Assembly: GCA_945883725.1 (NCBI GenBank) | Contig: CAMCXZ010000005.1 | Location: 1-64,000, forward strand | From: Bifidobacterium breve | GTDB taxonomy: Bacteria > Actinomycetota > Actinomycetes > Nanopelagicales > Nanopelagicaceae | Reading direction: 5' to 3' | DNA length: 64,000 nt | Part shown: positions 15,413 to 17,295 of the stretch, piece after piece | Numbering within the stretch: position 1 is the stretch's first letter | Layout: each line of letters starts with the position of its first letter | Position numbers and translations under genes: made by a program | Notes under the pieces: generated by a model | What the model saw: the letters and a program-made list of their open reading frames with translations, nothing else | Told to the model about the DNA's origin: nothing | The model's database searches: none

Positions 15413-15955
15413 CTATTGCGTAGAGAGGATGAAATCCGCTCTTTCGCGAGTTAAGTCGCGTGCAAAATATTCACTTTCCATCTTCTGCCACTTGACCATC
15501 TCGCCACGAATCTCTTCACCATCTCGCTCTAAAACCCTAGCTAATCCAATACTTTGATCAATATCTAGCCAAATTGAAGTTGTTAAATCCGCTTGAAGTA
15601 GCTGATTAGAGCTACCGACTCCTTCAATGATTAGTAGTTGTGCGGCCTTAATCTCTCGCGTACCAGAAAAAGATGCGGTGGCCCAGTCATAGATGGCTAG
15701 GTCTGTTGCCTTGCCAGAGCTTTGAGCCGCAATTAATTGGGCAATTCGCTGAAATAGATCTTGCGATAGCGCGTCATCCCAACCGTTGTATAACTCATCA
15801 AGATGTATAACTTCAATATCGTAAGTTCCGCCAAATGCTCGCGCGATCTCATCGGCTAACGTGCTCTTTCCGGAACCTGCCGGGCCATCAATTGCTAGGA
15901 CTAGAGGTTTAGCTGATTCGTTAAATAGGTCGCGGAGCGCTTCGTTGATCTGCAT
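15413..15955 (-). CDS. P-loop kinase of uridine-kinase-like superfamily; substrate unknown, candidate vitamin-precursor kinase
   Basis: LAIDGPAGSGKSTLADEIA; HLDELYNGWD; overlaps the upstream PnuC-type gene. Likely start ATG at 15955 (MQINEALRD) rather than 15982. Confidence 0.75.
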   Translation of the reverse strand: MQINEALRDLFNESAKPLVLAIDGPAGSGKSTLADEIARAFGGTYDIEVIHLDELYNGWDDALSQDLFQRIAQLIAAQSSGKATDLAIYDWATASFSGTREIKAAQLLIIEGVGSSNQLLQADLTTSIWLDIDQSIGLARVLERDGEEIRGEMVKWQKMESEYFARDLTRERADFILSTQ

Positions 15956-16523
15956 ACCAACGCCTCCAACCTTGAAGTGCAATCATTGTGAATATTGCGT
16001 ATAGGAATGAAGTGAAATAATAACCTTGATTGAAATAGAGCGCGGTGCCAGCTATATCTACAACTATCCAGATTACCCAACTCTCATATTTTTCTAAGAC
16101 CATTAAAATTTGTGCAATTAGTGAGCCCACAAAGAGAAATGAATCAACAACTGTTGCAGACGCGCCAATTCTAGAAAGAAAGGGCGCCAGAACTAACCAC
16201 AAGCCGAGTATCCATAGAACTGAATAAATGCGGCTCCGGTTGCCAAGTTTGCCAGGCTTAGCACCTGATGGTGCCCAACCTTTCCAGCCACTAAATGCTG
16301 CGGCAATAAATACAAATTGAAGAGCAGCGCTAGCAATTAAGTTAGCTTGATAGAAGAAGATCGCATACAGCGCACTGCTAATTGCCCAAAATGGCCAGGT
16401 TATGCGTTTGCCGGTTGTGCCTAACCAGACTCCGGTTAAGGAAGTAAGCGCTGCGACAAATTCGAGGACAGATACTTCGTAACCCCAGGCGGTAAATAAA
16501 ATGTATGACACGTTAAACCCCAA
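15921..16523 (-). CDS. pnuT: PnuC-family vitamin-precursor transporter; predicted PnuT (thiamine) from its leader
   Basis: About 7 TM, TGKRITWPFWAISSALYAIFFYQANL, W.W.IVDIAGTALYFNQGYYFTSFLYAIF typical of PnuC; THI-box-like leader directly upstream. Confidence 0.8.
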   Translation of the reverse strand: MGFNVSYILFTAWGYEVSVLEFVAALTSLTGVWLGTTGKRITWPFWAISSALYAIFFYQANLIASAALQFVFIAAAFSGWKGWAPSGAKPGKLGNRSRIYSVLWILGLWLVLAPFLSRIGASATVVDSFLFVGSLIAQILMVLEKYESWVIWIVVDIAGTALYFNQGYYFTSFLYAIFTMIALQGWRRWYADQRSAPRPI

Positions 16524-16612
16524 TTCCAGGTCCGCATTACCGGACCGGTCAAGCGGTCGATCTGTGAATTACAGATCCTCTCAGCCAATTCCTTTAGGCT
16601 CCCGCACCGCAA
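16513..16612 (-). promoter_or_regulatory. Candidate TPP (THI-box) riboswitch, with non-canonical 3' half
   Basis: Reverse complement gcggtgcGGGAGCCtaaaggaattGGCTGAGAGGatctgtaattcacagatCGACCGCTTGACCggtCCGGTAATGcggacctggaattgggg contains GGGAGCC...GGCTGAGAGG, GACCGnnnGACC and CCGGTAATGCGG. Confidence 0.8.
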
Positions 16613-16663
16613 ACTATAGCGATTTAGTAAGAAATTCGCGCTGCTTTACGAGAGAATTAGCTC

Positions 16664-16996
16664 GTGGAGAAATACGGTTATTTGGCGATGTTAGCTTTCA
16701 CCCTTTGTGGATCCATCTGGCTAGAAGTATTTTTGAAGGTTGGCGTAATTCGCAGGTTTAAGCGAGTGATTTTGAGCATTTTACCGACCGCTATCTTTTT
16801 TCTAATTTGGGATGCCTACGCAATTAACCGTGGCCATTGGTATTTTGATAAGAATCAGATCCTCGGAATTTTTGGCCCCTTCGGCATTCCGCTCGAGGAG
16901 TTCATGTTCTTCTTAATTGTGCCGCTAGCTGCGCTATTAACAATTGAAGCTGTGCGGACTGTTAAAAAACATTGGGAAGTAGGGGATGAGTCATGA
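16664..16996 (+). CDS. crtYc: Lycopene cyclase domain protein, subunit c
   Basis: GTG start; INRGHWYFDKNQILGIFGPFGIPLEEFMFFLIVP. Confidence 0.85.
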   Translation: MEKYGYLAMLAFTLCGSIWLEVFLKVGVIRRFKRVILSILPTAIFFLIWDAYAINRGHWYFDKNQILGIFGPFGIPLEEFMFFLIVPLAALLTIEAVRTVKKHWEVGDES

Positions 16997-17295
16997 CCTA
17001 CACCCAAATCGCACTGATGGCGGTTTTTATCGCATCTTTCCTTGACCTAGAAGTGCTTCAGACGAAGTTGCTTAAGCGAAAAGTTTTCTGGACTTCTTAT
17101 GCAATTATTTTGCCGTTTCAGTTGCTGACTAATTGGTGGCTAACTTCTAGAGAGATTGTCATGTATAGCGAAGATACAATTTTAGGATTACGTATTGCAT
17201 CCGCACCGCTAGAAGATTTATTCTTTGGCTTTGCGTTAATTCTTTCGGTAATGGCAACCTGGGTTTATCTTGGCCGTAAAGCAAATAAAAACTAA
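16993..17295 (+). CDS. crtYd: Lycopene cyclase domain protein, subunit d
   Basis: APLEDLFFGFALI motif; 4-bp overlap with crtYc. Confidence 0.83.
   Translation: MTYTQIALMAVFIASFLDLEVLQTKLLKRKVFWTSYAIILPFQLLTNWWLTSREIVMYSEDTILGLRIASAPLEDLFFGFALILSVMATWVYLGRKANKN

Follow-up and report, generated by a model that had tools for sequence, protein, structure and literature searches.

A probable thiamine acquisition operon with a candidate P-loop thiamine kinase behind a variant THI-type leader in acI actinobacteria

Introduction

A THI-type leader, a pnuT-like gene and an overlapping P-loop kinase gene of Ca. Planktophila probably form a two-gene operon for thiamine acquisition, in which uptake by a PnuT-like carrier, trapping by the kinase and a further step by ThiL would act in sequence. 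acI actinobacteria, which dominate the plankton of fresh waters, rely on thiamine from outside. Their conversion of thiamine to TPP was unexplained before; a concrete candidate gene is now assigned to the missing step, and ThiL is predicted to perform the second one.

We propose that thiamine would enter the cell by facilitated diffusion through the PnuT-like carrier and would be phosphorylated to TMP by the translationally coupled P-loop kinase. TMP, which could not exit via the carrier, would be trapped, and ThiL, encoded elsewhere, would convert it to TPP. The THI-type riboswitch, which abuts the Shine-Dalgarno sequence on its 3' side, would lower translation when thiamine compounds are plentiful. 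The trapping principle of PnuC-type carriers has been described for nicotinamide riboside (NR) and NadR (PMC7221760).

The association of THI elements with PnuT and the thiamine auxotrophy of acI are already known. As far as its accessible sections go, the work of Kang et al. 2017 (PMC5301498) reports thiamine auxotrophy in acI, describes almost all salvage enzymes as lacking and, on the ground of the THI element, proposes PnuT for the acI homologs. It covers the lineage and the operon head that we describe, its strain IMCC26103 corresponding to our locus L128, but the kinase and the altered aptamer are unmentioned in those sections. The present analysis adds a kinase that is a candidate for phosphorylating thiamine, the assignment of the second step to ThiL, the displacement of the kinase by a NadR-like one and an aptamer without J4/5. 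A literature search, for which subscription papers were mostly out of reach, found no paper naming the kinase or the altered aptamer.

Anatomy of the locus

The window, i.e. the whole stretch of 64,000 nucleotides that was analysed, stems from a genome of 1.34 Mb (completeness 86%) which belongs to Ca. Planktophila, acI lineage, family Nanopelagicaceae. On the minus strand the order is THI-type leader, pnuT and overlapping kinase gene, with the following features.

16508-16615, minus strand: THI/TPP-type riboswitch aptamer, variant (Rfam RF00059, own model R1, covariation in 45 distinct leaders)
16579-16584, minus strand: CUGAGA, the pyrimidine (HMP)-binding J3-2 core, intact (sequence, 45/45 leaders; role of J3-2 from PMC3764141)
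16526-16548, minus strand: P4-P5 arm with the J4/5 positions paired and one bulged pyrimidine (covariation)
16518-16521, minus strand: GGGG Shine-Dalgarno sequence of pnuT (sequence; AGGA-like in the same place in relatives)
15921-16511, minus strand: pnuT-like gene, GTG start, 196 aa, PnuC fold (Pfam PF04973, AlphaFold, Foldseek; start by alignment)
15963-15967, minus strand: GGAGG Shine-Dalgarno sequence of the kinase, within pnuT (sequence)
15413-15955, minus strand: P-loop kinase, uridine-kinase fold, PRK06547-like, 180 aa, proposed thiamine kinase (Pfam, NCBIfam, AlphaFold, Foldseek)

Alignment to relatives places the start of pnuT at GTG 16511 and that of the kinase at ATG 15955; in both cases the TTG start called mechanically is too early. 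The GGGG of pnuT lies 4 nt downstream of the 3' strand of P4. A preliminary description of this DNA had noted a transporter, a kinase and a THI-box-like leader, all of which are real by Pfam, Rfam E-value, conservation and covariation, and its estimate of a gene overlap of about 35 nt becomes exactly 35 nt with the corrected starts. Upstream and divergent lie two split lycopene cyclase subunit genes (CarR_dom, window 16664-17295), neighbours which are conserved in genome G210 too. The downstream neighbour was identified by eye as a PASTA Ser/Thr kinase gene.

The leader is a THI-type element

The leader matches the Rfam TPP model RF00059 over its full length (1-105) with 37.8 bits (E 6.7e-6 in 501 bases), which is below the gathering score of 54.3, so that a default Rfam scan lists nothing. 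It is the sole RF00059 match in its genome (E 4.3e-6). Among 101 genomes of the genus, many of them incomplete and not independent of one another, 75 hold an RF00059 match (E up to 0.1), one of them two; the matches lie directly before pnuT wherever comparable, and none of the 101 genomes exceeds the gathering score. All 47 complete genus leaders that were extracted carry the element before pnuT.

The overall architecture is that of a TPP riboswitch, P2, P3 and P5 being paired in an alignment of 45 distinct leaders. Here 97.8% of the cells are paired, double changes occur at 9 pairs and the covariation signal is lost when the pairing partner is slid; CUGAGA is invariant in 45/45. Our own model R1, which was trained on a set that includes the window's sequence, scores 85.7 bits at 16517-16612. 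A failing Rfam TPP model had been named beforehand as an argument against the thiamine proposal. It does fail at the default threshold; because of the E-value, the conservation and the covariation, the leader is nevertheless a real THI-type element.

A pattern derived from the leader matches many Ca. Planktophila, P. lacus, P. limnetica, other uncultured actinobacteria and acI strain IMCC26103. Four MAGs from freshwater whose records bear the name Bifidobacterium breve or Streptomyces griseus (L125, L135, L138, L149) hold an acI-type operon; these records are probably mislabelled.

The PnuT-like carrier

The pnuT product is a member of the NMN_transporter family (PF04973; 137.7 bits, E 5e-40); about 100 homologs share 49-90% identity with it. 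Its AlphaFold model (pLDDT 92.4) is matched by Foldseek to PnuC 4qtn with E 4e-8 and TMq 0.80. PnuT thiamine transporters have reportedly been treated by Jaehme and Slotboom and by Rodionov. With these the carrier shares the PnuC fold, the THI element and the facilitated-diffusion class that needs metabolic trapping. The partner differs, being a PRK06547-like P-loop kinase here and a thiamine pyrophosphokinase (TPK) there.

Pfam and NCBIfam call the carrier PnuC, an annotation that had been foreseen. This name, and the pairing of pnuT with a NadR-like kinase in other actinobacteria, would suit a nicotinamide riboside uptake module made of PnuC and an NR kinase. We hold such a module to be improbable, since a THI element stands ahead in 47/47 complete genus leaders examined and since genomes without TPK and ThiE would then lack any known path from thiamine to TPP. 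The carrier motif WxxWxxVD, as compared to WxxWxxVN in PnuC 4qtn, may likewise speak against NR. Linkage to a THI element, together with ThiL in genomes without ThiE or TPK, agrees instead with the designation PnuT. The second, FMN-linked paralogue that Kang et al. 2017 (PMC5301498) name PnuX, in the sections accessible, probably corresponds to weaker second matches (28-31% identity) in some genomes.

The missing step of the thiamine pathway

Profile searches found TPK (TIGR01378) in none of the 101 genus genomes and in none of 31 further genomes, each at least 90% complete. ThiK (TIGR02721) likewise exceeds its cut-off in 0/101 genus genomes. ThiE does so in one of the 101, as a borderline match, and is absent from the window's genome. 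ThiL is found in 99 of them, in 81 over the cut-off, and reaches 198 bits in the window's genome. Since there is no TPK, no ThiK over the cut-off and practically no ThiE, and ThiL is kept, the gap lies between thiamine and TMP, where the kinase fits; with ThiL alone retained, the known route from thiamine to TPP needs some TMP maker. A check of the genome for thiN, thiL, thiC and thiE had been proposed earlier, and for the window's genome it gives TPK and ThiE as missing and ThiL as present.

The module could instead import HMP or thiazole, the kinase being a ThiD- or ThiM-like enzyme, as variant THI leaders before cytX (HMP carrier) in another family might suggest. The two halves cannot be joined without ThiE, which is below the cut-off in 100/101 genomes and absent from the module's own, and an HMP or thiazole kinase was rejected on this ground; we regard this as very improbable. 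Of the thiamine uptake-and-trap proposal in the preliminary description, the thiamine part is thus the best-supported reading (no TPK, ThiK or ThiE, presence of ThiL, linkage), and its HMP and thiazole alternatives are disfavoured because no ThiE is there to join the halves.

E. coli ThiK (YcfN) would share with our kinase the reaction from thiamine to TMP, followed by ThiL, but ThiK belongs to the APH family and the window's kinase to the uridine kinase/PRK P-loop family. A ThiK-like APH protein was considered as a universal TMP maker and rejected, for weak matches of this type (56-73 bits, cut-off 299) occur in roughly one in three genomes of the genus and none occurs in the window's genome. 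At L070-L072 the APH-like proteins have 309 aa and score 70-73 bits to ThiK. Their occurrence in a third of the genus counts against reading the P-loop protein as the thiamine kinase.

The kinase

The kinase had been described as a uridine-kinase-like P-loop protein, and it passes the Pfam PRK/uridine-kinase cut-off (PF00485; 35 bits, cut-off 22). It is below every specific NCBIfam cut-off: its best family is the uncharacterised PRK06547 (NF005115, 'hypothetical protein') with 96.2 bits (cut-off 173), and uridine kinase TIGR00235 gives 44.7 bits (equivalog cut-off 220.3). The closest solved folds to its AlphaFold model (pLDDT 94.9) are uridine-cytidine kinases (Foldseek E 5.5e-11); a comparison with a viral structure library added nothing.

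Among 99 homologs 25 positions are invariant, including D23, K30, D53, Y56, G58, W59, W91, E111, W129, R140, R144, D145 and W156. The modelled fold and the invariant D53, Y56, W59, W91, E111, R144 and W156 indicate a presumably active kinase. Fold, Walker A, D-x-x-Y motif, EG motif and R/D lid are common to this protein, the uridine-cytidine kinases, the PRK family and PRK06547. From uridine-cytidine kinases and PRK06547 it differs by scores below the specific cut-offs and by W59, W91 and W156, invariant in the PnuT-linked set. No His or Arg is conserved just after the Y/F-D/N-W motif, the site which we take to be that of base recognition in uridine-cytidine kinases.

Linkage to pnuT and reciprocity with ThiE

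In 203 of the 205 loci that hold both, kinase and pnuT are neighbours on the same strand, within 70 nt of each other; some places are counted twice in this set. The neighbourhood survey proposed in the preliminary description thus yields near-universal linkage. In two families the linkage persists despite differing flanking genes. Behind a THI element and pnuT the slot is filled in four genomes (L265, L278, L285, L248) from two other actinobacterial families by a NadR-like kinase without adenylyltransferase domain, assigned to its family (AAA_28) by Pfam for two of the four. As two different kinase families adjoin THI-pnuT, they argue for selection on phosphorylation of the imported vitamin.

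The 31 further genomes hold the kinase in 22 cases and ThiE in 3. Among the 24 of these genomes that come from families f1 and f39, the two with this kinase, 21 have the kinase without ThiE, 2 ThiE without the kinase, 1 both and 0 neither (Fisher p 0.011, relatedness uncorrected), so that kinase and ThiE are almost reciprocal in these families. The single exception, G210 (L316), is a thiamine prototroph with a full thiC-thiM-thiE operon behind a canonical riboswitch. Its kinase gene occupies the corresponding position, flanked by crt and pknB genes; pnuT and riboswitch are missing there, and the encoded copy has RDE for the invariant RDG and has lost one more invariant residue.

A general actinobacterial salvage kinase for uridine, cytidine or another small alcohol, before which riboswitch and pnuT were merely inserted, with TPP coming from an unrecognised enzyme, would account for the uridine-kinase fold, for homologs elsewhere without pnuT and for the solitary kinase of G210. 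We think this unlikely, since two families keep the linkage to pnuT despite their flanks, ThiE is reciprocal except in G210, the His or Arg after the Y/F-D/N-W motif is not conserved and the G210 copy is altered at otherwise invariant residues.

A thiamine-specific role of the kinase is our inference, and homologous kinases without pnuT occur in other actinobacteria, where the best match of the family does not lie beside pnuT; the kinase may therefore have another or a wider role. That G210 keeps it without pnuT also counts against a thiamine kinase. Around PRK06547 homologs of fourteen other actinobacteria no recognisable thiamine gene was seen, ORF calling being poor in this high-GC DNA. In family f39 (L242, L244, L246, L249) some 0.9 kb separate the pnuT-kinase operon from a gene recognised by eye as 2-oxoglutarate dehydrogenase E1-like, a TPP enzyme.

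A variant aptamer with an altered pyrophosphate pocket

In canonical TPP riboswitches the metal ions and the pyrophosphate are coordinated by G60, C77 and G78 of J4/5 (PMC3764141), and switching of E. coli thiM requires pyrophosphate recognition (PMC4112796). The leader has P2, P3, the CUGAGA core, P4-P5 and the L5 UAAUG in common with RF00059, but the J4/5 loop is replaced: the positions homologous to G60, C77 and G78 are base-paired and covary, and the canonical pocket is not found. Among the 45 distinct leaders, columns 68-85 pair as C-G in 26 and as G-C in 11, and columns 69-84 are G-C in 18, G-U in 14 and A-U in 12, i.e. paired in 44/45. When sister genera are included (117 distinct leaders), both pairs are formed in 102 and the inner pair in 116, and in the sister-genus leader L252 P4-P5 is a perfect 8-bp helix (CCAAUUCG/CGAAUUGG). 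We conclude that the leader is a variant of the THI-type riboswitch in which the canonical pyrophosphate pocket is lacking. Such an element would represent a naturally occurring change of specificity in a riboswitch class that ranks among the best studied.

In the same family, canonical CCUG...CG-N-AGG arms stand before thiC-thiM-thiE (G210, L236) and before thiO (L237). Among the leaders sampled, the canonical aptamer precedes thiC in 15/15, thiE in 3/3 and thiO in 8/9 cases; the variant also occurs before ykoE and cytX. The neighbouring genes in this comparison were labelled by motif or by eye, and the automatic labels canonical and variant hold only roughly for two or three leaders near the boundary (L268, L282). 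Because the model used for sampling had been derived from the variant, the p value of the cross-table is unreliable. A rule that variant aptamers precede uptake genes only was rejected, with one variant before thiO and nine canonical aptamers before cytX.

We tentatively put forward a wider reading, about which we are rather doubtful: PRK06547-like kinases could be a new, non-homologous thiamine kinase family, possibly the missing ThiK of TPK-less actinobacteria, whose operon would stand under a pocket-less riboswitch sensing thiamine or TMP rather than TPP.

Base-pair-closed P4-P5 arms occur before cytX or thiO in other actinobacteria (L258, L263, L264, L247), which suggests that several lineages gained the variant or have kept it. 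In Coriobacteriia (L161, L188, L189) a J4/5-less THI aptamer is likewise found, and it precedes an operon with a TPK-like ORF, recognised by eye downstream in L188 and L189.
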